Positions 9,485 through 45,737 of a DNA stretch of 64,000 nt are shown piece after piece; within the stretch, counting starts at the first letter, position 1, and each line of letters opens with the position of its first letter. Position numbers and translations under genes: made by a program. The notes below the pieces were generated by a model. The model was not told the DNA's origin, did no database searches, and saw only the letters and a list, made by a program, of their open reading frames with translations. The stretch comes from Dehalogenimonas sp. THU2 (GTDB lineage Bacteria; Chloroflexota; Dehalococcoidia; Dehalococcoidales; Dehalococcoidaceae): positions 1 through 64,000 of the forward strand of contig NZ_JBDLLU010000003.1 of the NCBI RefSeq assembly GCF_039749495.1. Direction: 5' to 3'.

Positions 9485-9786
9485 TTCCGCTGGCAACGAT
9501 AACGGAAATTTATCTTCCCAAAAATATTTTCAAAACCCGCCAAAATCCTCTTGACAAAATTTATAGAACACCATTACTATACTTACACGGCCTGAACAGA
9601 CGGGTTGACGGGCGGTGCGGCGGCGGATGCGGCCGGTGGTTTTAATCCCCAGGTTTCGATAATGCCTTCAGCTTTGGCTGTGGCAGAGAACATACGTGCG
9701 GTAATAAATTGCGAGCATAGCCAAGATAGATTCGCCGGGGGCGCGGGAGAAACCCGCCCCGCTCGCGGCGGGAATGATGAGCGAGA
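9485..9786. other. Non-coding leader region of the capsid module
   Basis: About 300 bases with no convincing gene. It holds a candidate plus-strand promoter, TTGACA at 9551-9556 with TACTAT at 9575-9580 (18-base spacer). A GC-rich stretch (about 9730-9780) with GCGGG/CCCGC and CGCGGCGGG inverted repeats follows, immediately before the first gene of the phage-type block. The long structured leader could be an untranslated regulatory RNA or a packaging-type site. The plus-strand frame starting at 9605 mixes composition and overlaps the real gene out of frame, so it is not called. Confidence 0.5.
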
Positions 9787-10098
9787 ATGGAAGAAGAACT
9801 ATCCCCGGATCCGGACGAGGCGCCCCGTTACAACCAGTACCCCGACACCGGCTGTGAGCTGGCCGGAGCCTGCCTCAACTGTCCTTACCCTCTGTGCCAT
9901 TACGACGATCCCGCCCTGGCCCGCCGCCTCCGCAATATCATCATGGGCAAGCGGCTGCTGTACCAGTTGAAACGGGGGCGGACGCTGGTCGAGGCGGCCG
10001 CGGCTAAAGGCTTGACGCTCAGGACGGCGGAGCGGCGGGTGGCGGAGTACCGTGAGGCGAAAGAAAAACAACGGGGAGTGGAGTTTGACGATGTCTGA
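9787..10098 (+). CDS. HTH protein with N-terminal Cys motif, head of capsid module
   Basis: This 103-residue protein opens with an acidic stretch, then a Cys-rich patch GCELAGACLNCPYPLCHYDD (Cys spacing C-x5-C-x2-C-x4-C, possibly metal-binding). A basic helical C-terminus follows (LVEAAAAKGLTLRTAERRV) that reads as a helix-turn-helix. It stands where many phages encode a small terminase or late regulator, and the stop overlaps the portal start by 8 bases, so the two are translationally coupled. Whether it binds a packaging site or a promoter is not visible. No close family recognised. Confidence 0.6.
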   Translation: MEEELSPDPDEAPRYNQYPDTGCELAGACLNCPYPLCHYDDPALARRLRNIIMGKRLLYQLKRGRTLVEAAAAKGLTLRTAERRVAEYREAKEKQRGVEFDDV

Positions 10099-11428
10099 TA
10101 CCTTCCAGATCGATTCGACCGGCGACCGGCGCAGGCGCTACCGGGAGATGCTGGATTTCTACCGGGGACGCCAGCAATCCGGCCGGAACCGGGAGGCCAC
10201 CCGGCTCACTCTCAACTACGCCGCTGCTGTGGTGGACAAGGCTACCGCCTACCTGATGAACGGCTTGTCGGTCAAAGCCGTCGCCGCTAACGACGATGAG
10301 AGATCGATAGCGGCGGCCAAACGGGCCCAGGCGCTCCTCGACCGTGCTTACGGCGCAAGCCGCCTGGAGCTGCTGGACTACGAGACGGAGATCGACGTCG
10401 CGGTGCTGGGGGACGGCTGCTACCGGCTGGGCTGGGACGCCGCCGCCGGAACGGTACGGGTGACCGCGCCGGACGTAGCCGGCATCGACGTCGATTACGC
10501 CCTGGACGGATTGACGGCGGAACGGGTGACGACGGCTTACACCCTGGACGCCGGGGCGGCGGCCCGGGCATGGGGCGCGGCGGAATCCCACGTCGTAGGG
10601 GCGACCGGCCGGTCGCCCTCCCGGAGCCCCAGTTCGACGGGCAAAGAAGTCGAAGTCGTCGAGGCCTGGACGTCGGAGGCGTTCGAAATCTCCTGCGGTG
10701 GCGTAGTGGTAACGGCGGGGGAGAACCCTTACGGCTTTATCCCCTTCATCGTCTTCCCCAATCTGTCGCGGCCGAAAACCACCTGGGGCGCCTCCGACCT
10801 GGAGAACCTCATCGAAGTGCAGCGGGAACTGAACCGCGCGGCCGGCCAGCTTTCCCGCATCCTGGAACTATCCGGCAACCCCATCGCCGTGCTGGAGAAC
10901 GTCCAGTCATCGACGGACATCGCCGTGGCGCCGGGAGCGGTGTGGCACCTGCCGGAAGACACGCGGGCGTATCTGCTGGACCTGCTCCAGGGAGGAGGAG
11001 CGCAGCTTCACGTCAACTACATCGACCTGCTGTTCCGGGTGCTGCATGACCTGGGCGAGATGCCGCGGGCGGCCTTCGGCGGAGCGGGACGGGACATCTC
11101 CGGCGTGGCGCTGGAACTGGAACTTCAGCCGCTTTTGCACCGCGTCTGGCGTAAACGGCTCATCCGCACCGGCGTCTACCGGCGGCGGGCGGAGATGATC
11201 CTGGAGATGTCCGCCAGGTTCCTCGACGAGAACTTCGACGGCTGCCGCATCGAGGTGAACTGGTCGCCGGTGCTGCCCCGCGACACCGCGGCCATGGCGG
11301 CGGTGGAAAAAACGCTGGTAGAAACCGGCATCCACTCCCGGCGCCGGGCCATGGATGCTATGGGCGTCGATGATCCGGAGCGGGAATTCCGGGACTGGCT
11401 GGACGAAAGAATGGCTTTACAACAATAA
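10091..11428 (+). CDS. Phage portal protein (SPP1-gp6-like)
   Basis: 445 residues starting at ATG 10091, inside the end of the previous gene. The N-terminal part has RRRYREMLDFYRGRQQ and LNYAAAVVDKATAYLMNGL, then DVAVLGDGCYRLGWD. The middle has ENPYGFIPFIVFPN and WGASDLENLIEVQRELNR, and the C-terminal part IHSRRRAMDAMGVDDPEREF. This order is characteristic of dodecameric portal proteins that form the DNA gate at a capsid vertex. The length is normal for the family and the frame is intact with strong GC-rich codon use, so it looks maintained. In a normal phage it would follow the large terminase gene, which is missing here. Confidence 0.85.
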   Translation: MSDTFQIDSTGDRRRRYREMLDFYRGRQQSGRNREATRLTLNYAAAVVDKATAYLMNGLSVKAVAANDDERSIAAAKRAQALLDRAYGASRLELLDYETEIDVAVLGDGCYRLGWDAAAGTVRVTAPDVAGIDVDYALDGLTAERVTTAYTLDAGAAARAWGAAESHVVGATGRSPSRSPSSTGKEVEVVEAWTSEAFEISCGGVVVTAGENPYGFIPFIVFPNLSRPKTTWGASDLENLIEVQRELNRAAGQLSRILELSGNPIAVLENVQSSTDIAVAPGAVWHLPEDTRAYLLDLLQGGGAQLHVNYIDLLFRVLHDLGEMPRAAFGGAGRDISGVALELELQPLLHRVWRKRLIRTGVYRRRAEMILEMSARFLDENFDGCRIEVNWSPVLPRDTAAMAAVEKTLVETGIHSRRRAMDAMGVDDPEREFRDWLDERMALQQ

Positions 11429-11443
11429 AAAAGGAGGAAAACC

Positions 11444-11845
11444 ATGGAACCAACAGAAAACGGAATCGTTTCACTCGATTCCGCGACAGCAAACGAATCA
11501 CAGACAGAGGCCGAAACCCCGGTGTCACCCAGCGATGCCATCGACCGCCTGACGCAAACCCTGGCCGACCGCGAGGCCGTGATCATCCAACTGAACGCCA
11601 GCCTCGACGAGGCGGTGGCCGCCTACCGCGCTTCCGCCGCGGCGCGGAACCCCGCCATACCGGCGGAAATCATCACCGGCGATACCGTCGCCGCCGTCGA
11701 CGAATCGGTTAAAAAAGCCCGCGCCCTGGTGGAGCAGGTCAAGGCCGCGCTGAAAACCGCCCCGCCCCCCGTGATCGCCGCCCGCCGCGGCGCGACCGGA
11801 ACGATGACCGTGGAGGAGAAGATCAGGCGGGGGCTGGGGTTTTAG
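11444..11845 (+). CDS. Scaffold-like coiled-coil protein of capsid module
   Basis: 133 residues, with AAGGAGGA 8 bases upstream of the ATG. The sequence is acidic and helical: a low-complexity N-terminus, a heptad-like segment DAIDRLTQTLADREAVIIQL, a second helix (VDESVKKARALVEQVKAAL) and a basic end EKIRRGLGF. Position between portal and major capsid genes, size and helical make-up fit an internal scaffolding protein, whose basic C-terminus would bind capsid subunits. No prohead protease gene or protease motif is seen. The call is positional. Confidence 0.55.
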   Translation: MEPTENGIVSLDSATANESQTEAETPVSPSDAIDRLTQTLADREAVIIQLNASLDEAVAAYRASAAARNPAIPAEIITGDTVAAVDESVKKARALVEQVKAALKTAPPPVIAARRGATGTMTVEEKIRRGLGF

Positions 11846-11939
11846 ACCCGGGGGAATTGTTTCAATTGTTTTCACCCCTGAAATCAATTCCTAAAAATTT
11901 CCTAGCCAAACCAAAGAAAACTGAAGGAGAAAATAGAAT

Positions 11940-12860
11940 ATGGCCATCACCCTGACCGAAGCATCCAAACTATCCAATGACCTGCTGCTGCAAGGCGTCG
12001 TCGAGACGATGATCAAGGACTCGCCGGTGCTGAACCGGATGCCGTTCATCGAGATCACCGGCAACGGCCTGACCTATAACCAGGAGAAAACACTCCCGGA
12101 CATCGCCTTTTACGACGTCGGCGAGGACTGGGCGGAAAGCACGCCGACCTTCGAGCAGAAAACGGCTCACCTCAAGATCATGGGCGGCGACGCGGACCTG
12201 GACAATTTCCTGAAGACCACCCGCTCGGACCACCAGGATCTCCAGGCCGCCATCATCCAGCAGAAGGCCAAGGCGCTCAAGGACAAGTTCGAGGACATCT
12301 TCATCTACGGCAACGCGGCAGTCAACGCTAAGGAATTCGACGGCCTGCGGGCGCTTCTCGGGACCGAAACCGGCGGCAGCCAGGTCATCGCCGCTGGAAC
12401 GAACGGCGCGACCCTGACCCTCGACGCGCTCGACCAACTGATCGACGCCGTCAAGGGCGGCAAACCGGACATGCTGATGATGAGCCGCCGCACCCGGCGC
12501 AAGGTATCCACCCTCATCCGGGCTTCCGGCGGCGTGCTGGAAACCGACCGCGACGCCTACGGCAACTTCATCCAGTTCTGGAACGGCGTCGCCATCGGCG
12601 TCAACGACTGGATCAAGGACACTCACGTGGTAGCCGGCGGCGTGGAAGCGGCCGTCACCGGCGGCGACTGCTCCACTGTCTTCGCCGTCCAGTTTGGCGA
12701 GGGCGCCCTGTCCGGCCTGTCCAGCCCCGGCTTGATCCAGGTCAAGCACATGGGCTCCCTGGAAGGCAAGGACGCCGTCCGCACCCGCATCAAGTGGTAC
12801 TGCTCTTTAGCCCTGTTTTCATCGGTGAAAGCCGCCGCGCTTATCGGGGTCAAAGACTGA
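11940..12860 (+). CDS. Major capsid protein, HK97-fold type
   Basis: 306 residues. The start LTEASKLSNDLLLQGVVETM and the next blocks (SPVLNRMPFIEITGNGLTYN, then FYDVGEDWAES) match phage major capsid proteins of the HK97 fold that lack a long N-terminal delta domain. The pattern MLMMSRRTRRKVSTLIRASG followed by WNGVAIGVNDWI is the usual peripheral-domain region, and the C-terminus RTRIKWYCSLALFS is the standard A-domain strand. No Lys/Asn cross-link can be assigned. GGAG lies 10 bases upstream of the ATG. The gene is full-length and intact, and with the portal it is the strongest evidence that this block makes a particle. Confidence 0.85.
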   Translation: MAITLTEASKLSNDLLLQGVVETMIKDSPVLNRMPFIEITGNGLTYNQEKTLPDIAFYDVGEDWAESTPTFEQKTAHLKIMGGDADLDNFLKTTRSDHQDLQAAIIQQKAKALKDKFEDIFIYGNAAVNAKEFDGLRALLGTETGGSQVIAAGTNGATLTLDALDQLIDAVKGGKPDMLMMSRRTRRKVSTLIRASGGVLETDRDAYGNFIQFWNGVAIGVNDWIKDTHVVAGGVEAAVTGGDCSTVFAVQFGEGALSGLSSPGLIQVKHMGSLEGKDAVRTRIKWYCSLALFSSVKAAALIGVKD

Positions 12861-12867
12861 CGCCCCC

Positions 12868-12937
12868 GGCTATTTGTAGTATTTGCCATTGGTAGTATTG
12901 GTAGTATTTGTCATTTGTAGTATTTGTAGTATTTCCC
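12868..12937. repeat. Tandem TTTGTAGTAT/TTGGTAGTAT repeat
   Basis: Six or seven imperfect copies of a 10-13 base unit (TATTTGTAGTATTTGCC-like) fill the gap between the capsid and adaptor genes. They are AT-rich against a background of very high GC. The same unit in inverted orientation lies at 7944-7990. It does not encode protein. It leaves the adaptor's own Shine-Dalgarno (GAGGAG) intact. Confidence 0.8.
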
Positions 12938-12951
12938 CATGAGGAGCCACC

Positions 12952-13584
12952 ATGAACATATCATCGATACGCGCCCTGGTCCGCAAAGACCTCCGCGACA
13001 CCAACTCCGCCACCTACCGCTGGCCGGACGAGGTACTGGACCGCCATATCTCCCGCGCCGTCGCCGAATATTCGGCGGCGGCCCCGCGTGAAATGACCAT
13101 GACCTTCACCACCACCCACGGCAACCGTGACATCGATCTAACCCCGATCATCGACCGCGTCTGTGTCATGGCCGCGGAGTACCCTGCCGGTGAGAACCCC
13201 CGCCGCTTCCGCCGCTACTCCATCTGGGCGCACCGCCTGACGCTGGAGGGCGACCCGGCGCCGGACGGCTCTGACCTGACCGTCTATTACGGCGCTCTGC
13301 ACACTCTCGATGCCGGAACATCGACGCTGCCGGCCGGACATTACGACCTCATCGCCACCGGCGCGGCCGCCTACGCCGCCATCGAGTGGGCCGCCTTCGC
13401 CGTCAACCGGGTCAACAGCGGCGCGGACGCCGCGGGCGGCTACTTCCGCTGGGGCAAAGAGCGCCTGTCCCTCTTCCGCGACGAATTGCGGCGTTTATCG
13501 CAAAGAAGCAGCCTGCGGGTGAGCCGTTTATACGTGGCGCCCGAATCCCCGCCCGAACCCGCCTTCTTCGACGATGCCTGTTGA
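12952..13584 (+). CDS. Head-tail adaptor-like protein
   Basis: 210 residues. The opening SIRALVRKDLRDTNSATYRW, followed by PDEVLDRHISRAVAEYS, is the helix pattern of phage head-tail connector/adaptor proteins (gp6/gp15-like), which form a ring under the portal. The middle is beta-rich (MTMTFTTTHGNRDIDLTP, then LTLEGDPAPDGSDLTVYYGA), and the C-terminal helices carry YFRWGKERLSLFRDELRRL. It follows the capsid gene directly, as in many phages. GAGGAG is 6 bases upstream. Fold assignment rests on pattern and position only. Confidence 0.6.
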   Translation: MNISSIRALVRKDLRDTNSATYRWPDEVLDRHISRAVAEYSAAAPREMTMTFTTTHGNRDIDLTPIIDRVCVMAAEYPAGENPRRFRRYSIWAHRLTLEGDPAPDGSDLTVYYGALHTLDAGTSTLPAGHYDLIATGAAAYAAIEWAAFAVNRVNSGADAAGGYFRWGKERLSLFRDELRRLSQRSSLRVSRLYVAPESPPEPAFFDDAC

Positions 13585-13633
13585 TCAGAACACAAAATCA
13601 ACCACAAATATCCAAATTCAAAAAGGAGCATCA

Positions 13634-13873
13634 ATGAACCCCTACAAACAACTCTGGTCCCGCCTAGGCGGCCGCCCCTGGACCTACATCATCCGCGACC
13701 TGTGGCACCGCTTTGAATGGCTGTGGCTCATCGGGCTGCTGCTTATCGGCTACTTCATGGGCTGCAACGGCTACGAGGACATGCTCGGCTGCATGATCAC
13801 CTTCAACCTGGGCTACGTAGCCGGGCATGTCTTCTGGGGCACGCCGTACGTGCCGGGGCAGAAGGGGGAATGA
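13634..13873 (+). CDS. Small two-helix membrane protein (holin-like size)
   Basis: 79 residues from ATG 13634, preceded by AAAAGGAGC. Two hydrophobic stretches, FEWLWLIGLLLIGYFMG and DMLGCMITFNLGYVAGHVF, follow an amphipathic Trp-rich start (RPWTYIIRDLWHRF). Size and topology resemble a class II holin, but no endolysin gene is present, so a holin role is only a possibility. The N-terminal extension to 13574 seen in the open frame covers non-coding AT-rich sequence and overlaps the preceding gene; it is rejected. The stop overlaps the start of the next gene. Confidence 0.6.
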   Translation: MNPYKQLWSRLGGRPWTYIIRDLWHRFEWLWLIGLLLIGYFMGCNGYEDMLGCMITFNLGYVAGHVFWGTPYVPGQKGE

Positions 13874-15609
13874 TGCGGCCCATTTCGACGACACTGCTCG
13901 ACGCCCAGCGCTCGGACTCCCGCGCGCCTTACGTCAAAGCCGGCGTCAAACGCCGGTTCCCCGTCTGGCAATCGGTCTATACAGGCACCGAGTCCGACGC
14001 GCCCCACGCCGCCGCATTCGCCGCCGACGGCTCGATGATCCGCGCCCGCCTCACCCCGCCCGCCGATTCCCGCAAACTCTACCGGCAGCGGACGGCGGCC
14101 CCGGGCATCGGCGCCGATTTCAGCCAGTGGGTCTATACCGGCGAATCGGACGCGGTCAATGTCGCCGTCGCCGCTTATGGTTCCGCGGTCTCGATAGTCT
14201 GGATCAAGAGCGACCGCGGCATCCGGCGCATGGTCAGCGGCGATAACGGCCTCACCTGGAGCGCGCCGGAACTCATAGATTACACCCCGACCACCGCCAT
14301 CAACGGCCTGGCGGCGGCGTACGAACCAACCGGCAACCTGGCCGTCTTCTTCGCCGACCAGGCGACGCTGTATGTGAAAAGGTGCATCGATGGTGCATGG
14401 CAGACTCGTACGGTCTGGAACAAAACAACCAGTGCGCTCACCGGAGTCGCTTGCGTCTATGACGGCGATTACAACCTGATGCTGACCGGCCGGGCGGTGA
14501 ACGGGGATTATCGTCTATGGTCGCTGGTTTACGGCGGGGATGGAAGCTGGGGAAACCTGATCGAGATCGCCGCCTCGCCGTCCGGGGAGCCGTATGAGTT
14601 CCGCCAGGCTTTCCTCGACCGGACGGACGTTTACCGCTGTTCATACGTCGAAAAATACACCGGCACCGAGCCGTCCAGCCGCGTTTACCTGAATTCGACG
14701 GTGCCCGGGGCGGGGTTCGGGGAGGGGTTGTGGACGGAACCGCAGCCTTTCGATGCGTTCGGGGAATACGGCCTGGCACTGATTCACGGCGACGACGCGA
14801 TGTGGCTGGCCTCGGCTGTTTCGCTTTGGCGGGCGGCCACGGATACCGCTGAAGTCGATATCACCGCTGATATCAAGGCGGCCACCCTCGAACTCGAAGC
14901 TTTCGACGGCAAACTGACCCTCCGCCTGGACAACGCCGAAGGCAGGTATAACGAATCACTGATCGAGGCCGGCGACGAAGTCGCGCTCAGTCCCGGTTAT
15001 ATCACCGAATCTGGCATCGAGGTCAGCGGCGGGCTGGGCTTCACCGTCACTGAAACCAGCCGCCGCGGCGCGCCGGGAGAATCCATCTTCACCGTCGAAG
15101 CCGCCGATGGCTGGACAGCGATCAGGGATTGGCAAGCCCGGAGCCAGTTGCGTTGGAACGGGACTCTTTCCATCAAGGATATCCTCGCCTGGCTGCTGGG
15201 GCGGGTGGGACTGCGGCTGGAAACCGTATCGGCATCTGAGATCATTACAACTCTGTACCCGGACTTCTCGATCAATCCCGGTGGGGATGGGATGGGGGCG
15301 GTCAAACGCCTCCTGTCCGAGGTGCCGGACAAACTGTTCATCGAGGGCGGGACAGCCTGTTTGGTCAACCCGCTGCCCGATGACGCGCCAGTTTACGCGT
15401 ACGGCACAGATCACGTGATCTTTGCCGCAAACCTCGTCGAATCAGGTGAAAGCGAGATCACCACCCCGCCAAACTGCGGTCAGCAACTCCACGACATCGT
15501 CGAGATCGCAAACCTCGATACCACGCGCTACCGGATCACCGCCATAAAGCTGGATTACCAGCCGGACAAAGGCAAACACGAGATGAAACTACGCTTCAAA
15601 GGTGCGTGA
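13870..15609 (+). CDS. Tail-hub protein with sialidase-type Asp-box
   Basis: About 579 residues; ATGs at 13870 and 13873 overlap the previous stop. Residues about 30-330 look like repeated beta-propeller blades. One (MVSGDNGLTWSAPELI) is a perfect Asp-box, S-x-D-x-G-x-T-W, as in sialidases and sortilins; related weaker blades are GDGSWGNLIEIA and GLWTEPQPFD. Residues about 340-579 have KLTLRLDNAEGRYNE, IKDILAWLLGRVGL and YRITAIKLDYQPDKGKHEMK, a pattern of phage tail-hub/baseplate proteins (gp27/gpD-like). The fusion suggests a receptor- or glycan-binding hub at the particle's tail tip. The propeller's catalytic residues could not be assigned, so binding rather than cleavage is assumed. Confidence 0.6.
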   Translation: MMRPISTTLLDAQRSDSRAPYVKAGVKRRFPVWQSVYTGTESDAPHAAAFAADGSMIRARLTPPADSRKLYRQRTAAPGIGADFSQWVYTGESDAVNVAVAAYGSAVSIVWIKSDRGIRRMVSGDNGLTWSAPELIDYTPTTAINGLAAAYEPTGNLAVFFADQATLYVKRCIDGAWQTRTVWNKTTSALTGVACVYDGDYNLMLTGRAVNGDYRLWSLVYGGDGSWGNLIEIAASPSGEPYEFRQAFLDRTDVYRCSYVEKYTGTEPSSRVYLNSTVPGAGFGEGLWTEPQPFDAFGEYGLALIHGDDAMWLASAVSLWRAATDTAEVDITADIKAATLELEAFDGKLTLRLDNAEGRYNESLIEAGDEVALSPGYITESGIEVSGGLGFTVTETSRRGAPGESIFTVEAADGWTAIRDWQARSQLRWNGTLSIKDILAWLLGRVGLRLETVSASEIITTLYPDFSINPGGDGMGAVKRLLSEVPDKLFIEGGTACLVNPLPDDAPVYAYGTDHVIFAANLVESGESEITTPPNCGQQLHDIVEIANLDTTRYRITAIKLDYQPDKGKHEMKLRFKGA

Positions 15610-15777
15610 GGTCGATACTTCTCCCTTTGGAGAAAGGGAGACTAAGAGGGATTTTCTCTTCCCTGCCTCACCAAACCGCCAAGAACCCGCCACAAAACTC
15701 CCCCTCTGTCATCCTTGAGCGCAGCGAAGGATCCCGATGCCTACCGTGGGAACTACTAAGTGAATAGGGAAATAACA
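15610..15777. other. Spacer with hairpin inside the capsid module
   Basis: No gene. It begins with an inverted repeat (CTCCCTTTGG then AAAGGGAG, near 15621-15641) and later holds GTCATCCTTGAGCGCAGCGA, with an inverted GGATCCC element typical of dispersed repeats in many bacterial genomes. There is no clear T-tract, so termination is uncertain. Confidence 0.5.
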
Positions 15778-15987
15778 ATGGACATAAAACAAGCCATCTT
15801 AAAAACTTTCGACGCCGGCAGCCATACCGCCACCATCCGGCTGTCAGGCTCTGCGCACGCCTACCTGGAAGGCGTGACGGTGGACCACAACATTCCTGTC
15901 GCAGAGATGGTTCCCGGCCGCAAGCTCGCTGTCATCTTCTTCGACAGGTACCGGGTGAGTGAGGCGGTGGTGGTGGCGTCCTGGTGA
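15778..15987 (+). CDS. Small beta-barrel (OB-like) tail-associated protein
   Basis: 69 residues from ATG 15778 (AGGGA 7 bases upstream). A GTG at 15760 would add six residues. The sequence alternates strands: HTATIRLSGSAHAYLEGVTV, then a turn, then GRKLAVIFFDRYRVSEAVVV. This single small barrel resembles the short OB-fold modules found beside tail-hub genes, which could seal or tip the tail. It is the last gene of the plus-strand phage-type run. No enzymatic motif is seen. Confidence 0.55.
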   Translation: MDIKQAILKTFDAGSHTATIRLSGSAHAYLEGVTVDHNIPVAEMVPGRKLAVIFFDRYRVSEAVVVASW

Positions 15988-15990
15988 GGG

Positions 15991-16245
15991 TCAGATATCC
16001 GCTTTCGGTGCGGCGGATCTTGCCTCCGCGTTCCGATGACATCGCAGGCAGAGCATCTGGCAGTTGTGGATGTCGTCTGAACCATCCGGGTCGATGGGGT
16101 AGTAGTGAGCCTCGTGATAATGCCAGATGAAGACCATACAGCGGCCTTTAGGGTGTTCCGGACAACCCGCGACGCACTGGCACTGGAGACCGGCGTTCTG
16201 ATAGGTGCGGAGTTTGACCGCGTCGGAGAAGTATATTTCGGACAT
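15991..16245 (-). CDS. HNH-type endonuclease-like zinc protein
   Basis: 84 residues with four Cys-type ligands in two pairs (CQCVAGC, then CLRCHRN) and the block IWHYHEAHYYPIDPDGSDDI before NCQMLCLRCH. The order Cys pair, H-x-H, D..N, C-x2-C-H matches zinc-supported HNH/beta-beta-alpha nucleases. In many phages an HNH protein assists terminase, but this gene is on the opposite strand and has its own promoter. Its stop is 3 bases from the stop of the plus-strand barrel gene, so it closes off the module. Catalytic activity is not proven by sequence. Confidence 0.65.
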   Translation of the reverse strand: MSEIYFSDAVKLRTYQNAGLQCQCVAGCPEHPKGRCMVFIWHYHEAHYYPIDPDGSDDIHNCQMLCLRCHRNAEARSAAPKADI

Positions 16246-45179: not shown

Positions 45180-45737
45180 ACGTAAAACCCTGTGTCGAAA
45201 CCAGGTCAGAATCGGAGAATGGGAGAGATATGACCGTTGATAATGATAGTATAACGGCAAGGTTAACCGCTTCTAACGGCGAAAAATGTCGTTAGTCCTG
45301 TCGCCACCGATGCCGTAGGGACCGATCGCAGGTCGGACCTGGGGTGGGGTGACTCCGGGAAAATTCAGTTGTTAAAGAGCGCCCCGCGGGTGAACCGGAA
45401 TATTGTTGAGTGTTTAGCAGTGGTTGCGGTGACATCACCGCCGCCAAAAACAAAAATTCATAAAACAATTCCGATGCTTAGCTATGGGCTAAACGTGGGA
45501 TTCGATATTTGAGTCGAATTCCGGTTCCGGAGAAAGTCGTGCCGGCGGGTTTGCCGATTCGTTTCGTGGAAACAAATGGTACATGTGTTCTTTAATAGCA
45601 CAGGTTAATGATATGGGCTGAGGGCCGGATTTGTCAATAGGATTTTGGCGGGTTTTTAAAATATGTTTTAGTTGTCAGTTAACAGTTTTCAGTTATCAGT
45701 TTATTGGGTGGGGTCACGTTTCCAAAATCCGGGTGAA
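45180..45737. other. Long intergenic region without a recognised gene
   Basis: About 560 bases with no convincing coding frame. It holds small inverted repeats (CTAACGGC with GTCGTTAG near 45270-45297; GACCGATCGC with GGTCGG near 45329-45346), a GGTACATGTGTTCT motif near 45575, and a TCAGTTAACAGTTTTCAGTT tract at 45672-45700 of a dispersed-repeat kind. A structured RNA is possible, but none of the known small RNAs (tmRNA, SRP RNA, 6S, RNase P) was recognised. Confidence 0.5.

Follow-up and report, generated by a model that had tools for sequence, protein, structure and literature searches.

A probable domesticated, gene transfer agent-like particle encoded by a capsid and tail module in Dehalogenimonas sp. 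THU2 and its relatives

The window analysed here, a stretch of 64,000 nucleotides from contig NZ_JBDLLU010000003.1 (C3) of Dehalogenimonas sp. THU2, holds a module of eight intact plus-strand genes (9787-15987). With a probability of roughly 0.74, these genes encode the head-and-tail part of a domesticated, headful-packaging, short-tailed particle, similar to gene transfer agents (GTAs), that packages chromosomal DNA and is vertically kept in Dehalococcoidales. Domestication is supported by the intactness of the genes and of the motifs of the large terminase (TerL), the co-occurrence of the components, purifying selection, and a capsid tree largely congruent with that of the host, as well as by a fixed site in several relatives, the lack of a recognised integrase in the chromosomal loci read, and a common promoter box. 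A first-pass annotation, made from the sequence alone, had already proposed a domesticated particle, either GTA-like or a short-tailed vehicle for cargo or proteins, and synteny, tree congruence, and dN/dS values now back this proposal.

The host genome has a size of 1.84 Mb in 35 contigs and is 99.8% complete. All frames of the module are open and were scored as coding by a self-trained gene caller, several of the products match phage profiles (Table 1), and the GC content of the region is 61-64%; the earlier description of eight intact, GC-rich capsid-module genes is therefore sound. The interval initially delimited (9551-16245) begins with the -35 hexamer belonging to a promoter (9534-9580) that precedes the module, and at its 3' end it takes in a minus-strand HNH gene that is probably a neighbour of the module. 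This HNH gene is kept beside the module in several genomes of the same genus. From 5 kb onward, the ORFs listed for the window include no recognised integrase or terminase, no lysis or replication genes were identified within the module, and Rfam yielded no match near it.

Table 1. Features of the module and its surroundings in the window.
Feature	Position	Strand	Evidence
Promoter box AACCCGCCAAAATCCTCTTGACAAA; -35 TTGACA at 9551, -10 TACTAT ending 9580	9534..9558	+	Same box before unlinked terS-terL copies
Four-Cys and helix-turn-helix (HTH) protein encoded at the start of the operon; candidate late-gene activator	9787..10098	+	Motif and profile matches
Portal protein	10091..11428	+	SPP1_portal 1.3e-15, phrog_64 2e-32
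Scaffold-like protein	11444..11845	+	Position and weak scaffold match (phrog_233 0.018)
HK97-type major capsid protein (MCP)	11940..12860	+	phrog_212 9.4e-68
Head-tail adaptor, SU10-type	12952..13584	+	Pfam SU10_adaptor 9.3e-10
Two-helix membrane protein, 79 aa	13634..13873	+	Kept in 12 loci (first gene clustering)
Predicted tail hub, 579 aa: N-terminal lectin/sialidase-like beta-propeller and gp27/Mu gp44-like central hub	13870..15609	+	AlphaFold2 and Foldseek
OB-fold protein, 69 aa, resembling the OB domain of tail-spike proteins	15778..15987	+	AlphaFold2 pLDDT 93
HNH protein; module membership uncertain	15991..16245	-	Pfam HNH 9.4e-6

The identities of the portal, the capsid, and the adaptor are secure as judged by profile matches, with SU10_MCP, GP7, and Phage_capsid all exceeding the Pfam cut-off for the MCP. 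The scaffold-like protein of the first-pass annotation is weakly matched by sequence, and its gene holds a fixed position in relatives, lying between the portal and capsid genes in intact order-level loci. The product of the first gene bears a DxGCExxxxCLxCPxxxC motif and an HTH, both kept in 18 loci, and an orthologue matches HTH_28 (5.8e-7) and a late-transcriptional-activator PHROG (3e-5), so that a role as a late-gene activator is possible. No family match was obtained with the Pfam and PHROG profiles for the two-helix membrane protein, which is at most holin-like by its shape.

The 579-residue protein has no family match by sequence profile either. In its AlphaFold2 model (pLDDT 91.2), a lectin-like propeller is followed by a tail hub of the gp27/Mu gp44 type, with Foldseek matches to 1wru, 3cdd, 8eon, and 9ndy, and to PLL-type lectins and sialidase-like propellers. 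The Asp-box tail hub of the first-pass annotation has to be corrected to a lectin/sialidase-like propeller joined to a gp27-type hub. The hubs Mu gp44 and T4 gp27 share this fold, but the protein of the module differs from them in its fusion to the propeller. Similarly, the OB protein has a fold like that of the P2 gpV-type OB domains, although it comprises only 69 residues and lacks the spike helix; its structural matches are all weak (E 0.003-0.04), and include P2 gpV (3qr8), Mu 9ki1_V, and the R2 pyocin spike (4s37).

Profile searches of the genome with Terminase_6N (PF03237) and phrog_2 returned no terminase. However, terL was first read in the loci of relatives and then used as a query, revealing two copies, on contigs C19 and C2, and none on the contig of the module. 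The C19 copy is intact, preceded by terS, and located near ATP-synthase genes, while the C2 copy (G000 C2:114553-115896, L086) lies between gyrA/lexA/ilvE and gyrB. The latter is broken by a single in-frame TGA at a position where relatives have a tryptophan codon. The TerL encoded on C19 holds intact motifs (RQGGKNELS, DEAQD, and the nuclease aspartates), which are conserved across 15 sequences; it matches Terminase_6C (2.7e-7) and terL PHROGs, and its profile weakly matches the solved nuclease domains of phage TerL proteins (5m1q, 5tge). In several relatives terL adjoins the module, with no integrase recognised in those chromosomal loci, and in several genomes terS-terL is unlinked from it. 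Extra copies of the terS-terL pair have also been observed. The absence of a terminase from the surroundings, as first reported, is confirmed, and the immediate flanks of the module contain no set of terminase and integrase genes, terS-terL being found elsewhere among gyr, atp, and ilvE genes. Of the two options considered at that time for the packaging ATPase, elsewhere or absent, the former is correct.

The promoter box of the capsid operon matches the box preceding terS within each genome in all seven same-genus genomes (7/7), and its sequence differs between species groups. This genome has 26 copies and four relatives have 19, 21, 39, and 37; a reversed control gave none. Solo terS-like ORFs or remnants of terS lie downstream of some of these boxes. 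An exact copy is present on the minus strand of the window (45630-45654), approximately 550 bp before a glutamate-synthase-like gene. The idea that the box is specific to the particle system was rejected on the basis of this genome-wide count (26 copies, in a family of 19-39 copies per genome). The box family is suggestive of a co-expression of the capsid operon and terS-terL, and would also fit a dispersed repeat. It is doubtful that the 19-39 dispersed boxes are parts of the system, either as a regulon co-switched with particle production or as packaging-start sites; in the latter case, they would let the particle sample the chromosome.

Among 393 genomes of Dehalococcoidia, the MCP was detected in 169, the portal in 185, the hub in 187, and TerL in 222, with the four proteins present together in 125 and none of them in 137. 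The odds ratios for co-occurrence in this set are 30 for MCP-portal and 36 for MCP-hub, and the joint occurrence of portal, MCP, and terL extends to cases in which they are unlinked. Most order-level loci have a rigid gene order; the decoration genes after the capsid gene vary. Several relatives have a common site, in which terS-terL and the module are flanked by pheT-pheS on one side, and by rpsU-yqeY and a radical SAM gene on the other. At this same site, genomes of the sister genus, where the capsid has been lost, keep terS-terL and hold the module decayed to fragments. One MAG (L160) exhibits a capsid gene interrupted by an insertion of ~7 kb. A gene for a surface protein with IPT/TIG-like repeats (cluster 7) often adjoins the module or terS-terL (L034, L038-L045, L088).

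The MCP and rpoB trees have 18 of 26 splits in common, and their distances are strongly correlated (Mantel r 0.81, 0/2000 permutations), those of the MCP being about two thirds of those of rpoB. Values of dN/dS in the module are mostly 0.03-0.3 (0.03-0.1 for most MCP comparisons), with a maximum of 0.49 for the adaptor in one pair, and dS is similar to that of neighbouring housekeeping genes. Accordingly, neither the sporadic distribution nor the dN/dS near 1 that the first-pass annotation had named as refuting its proposal was observed. In family f52, the portal gene is located near dnaE/alr/rpmH or pyrG, the hub and OB genes near thrB/folP/ispH, the MCP gene (with or without terL) elsewhere, and the adaptor gene also apart from the other parts among housekeeping genes, a layout in which the parts cannot be mobilised together as a single element. 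From these sequence comparisons, the module looks to be inherited vertically with the chromosome across Dehalococcoidales, and further families of the class have a parallel set.

Regarding its origin, Streptomyces phage Rowa and Gordonia phage Nyceirae, SU10-type/actinophage relatives, have capsids of the same family, but the identity to them, as to the INPHARED phages overall, does not exceed ~40%. The nearest named capsid relatives are carried by MAGs of Dehalococcoidales. When the order-level capsid is searched against IMG/VR, the matches are fragments of the module's own locus, 4-16 kb long and in some cases with chromosomal flanks. IMG/VR also holds separate contigs of ~17-18 kb with a tyrosine integrase, terS-terL, and a full structural set. 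The nearest free relatives are temperate phages of ~17 kb (L327, L339), in which the hub gene is split over the contig ends, as expected of circular genomes. They share the order TerS-TerL-portal-scaffold-capsid-adaptor-hub, and their MCPs have ~50-75% identity to their closest relative within the set; they differ from the chromosomal module in having a tyrosine integrase and additional phage genes. These integrase-bearing small phages possibly constitute an undescribed phage group. In the capsid tree, they branch between two mainly chromosomal groups, one formed by the Dehalococcoidales loci and the other by the f35, f52, f53, f72, and f78 loci, a topology that would be compatible with two domestications, or with one followed by escapes. 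A few loci of the class, such as L059, nest among the phages and may be ordinary prophages. Capsid-portal-terL loci are also present in other classes of Chloroflexota (L371-L378).

A domesticated particle could also serve a purpose other than DNA transfer, such as receptor-targeted killing, protein delivery, or simply an empty shell. The lectin-like propeller would provide the targeting, and several genomes have terS-terL away from the module; nevertheless, this is an improbable reading, as the catalytic motifs of TerL are kept, terL evolves with a dN/dS of 0.10-0.30, portal, MCP, and terL are retained together despite being unlinked, and no obvious cargo gene is found in the module. The presence of the packaging ATPase also makes a protein-only cargo less likely. 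Still less probable is the repeated reacquisition of a mobile phage or satellite whose genome is split, since the congruence with rpoB, the fixed sites, the f52 parts among housekeeping genes, and the short same-locus IMG/VR matches outweigh the existence of integrase-bearing phage relatives and extra terS-terL copies. A slowly decaying defective prophage, already disfavoured, is the remotest of these options: the lack of integrase and replication genes in the module and the evident decay of the sister-genus loci L096-L098 would fit it, but the intact frames, the order-wide dN/dS values well under 1, the persistence at one site in several relatives, and the joint retention of scattered parts do not. 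As for an active temperate prophage, in which an integrase would accompany the structural genes, none was recognised among the listed ORFs of the window or in the module of chromosomal relatives, and neither a sporadic distribution nor a host-incongruent tree was found.

Several observations have been counted against the preferred reading, a domesticated GTA-like particle: the lack of an identified lysis gene, the 137 genomes with none of the four proteins, a same-genus genome (G200) where only terL is present among them, the capsid loss in the sister genus, the phages between the capsid clades, the L059-like loci, and the non-specific promoter box.

GTAs have been defined by six criteria, i.e., proteins derived from Caudoviricetes, genes endogenised, often at multiple loci, vertical inheritance with host co-diversification, a gene set that one particle cannot package in full, mostly random host DNA as content, and delivery of the DNA to other cells (Kogay et al. 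2022, PMC9662315). Profile and structure matches point to a Caudoviricete derivation, the genes are endogenised at multiple loci (the module on C3, terS-terL on C19 and C2, and scattered parts in f52), and MCP/rpoB congruence and common flanks indicate vertical inheritance, with some losses and a few class loci among phages. These are three of the six criteria, and the particle is consequently called GTA-like rather than a proven GTA. From the genes, it may be inferred that particles form, contain host DNA, and deliver it. In the proposed mechanism, scaffold and capsid proteins would build a procapsid on the portal, into which TerS-TerL, encoded elsewhere and apparently co-expressed through the same promoter type, would pump chromosomal DNA in a headful mode, and the adaptor, the propeller-hub, and the OB protein would close the head as a minimal receptor-binding tail.

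Like RcGTA (Rhodogtaviriformidae), BaGTA, and VSH-1/BhGTA from Brachyspira, this system derives from tailed phages, occupies multiple loci, is vertically inherited, and keeps packaging genes, with no replication genes recognised. In contrast to them, the module has another phage ancestor, belongs to another phylum (Chloroflexota), and combines a minimal tail bearing the propeller-hub fusion with an unlinked terS-terL. No earlier description of such a system in Dehalococcoidia or Chloroflexota appeared among the hits listed from open-access PMC, and the GTA-like particle looks undescribed in the literature searched. If this reading is true, Chloroflexota would gain an independently domesticated system, distributed across a class to which organohalide-respiring and deep-subsurface lineages belong and in which it could offer a route of gene exchange, while f52, with capsid parts among its housekeeping genes, would represent an extreme case of viral domestication.
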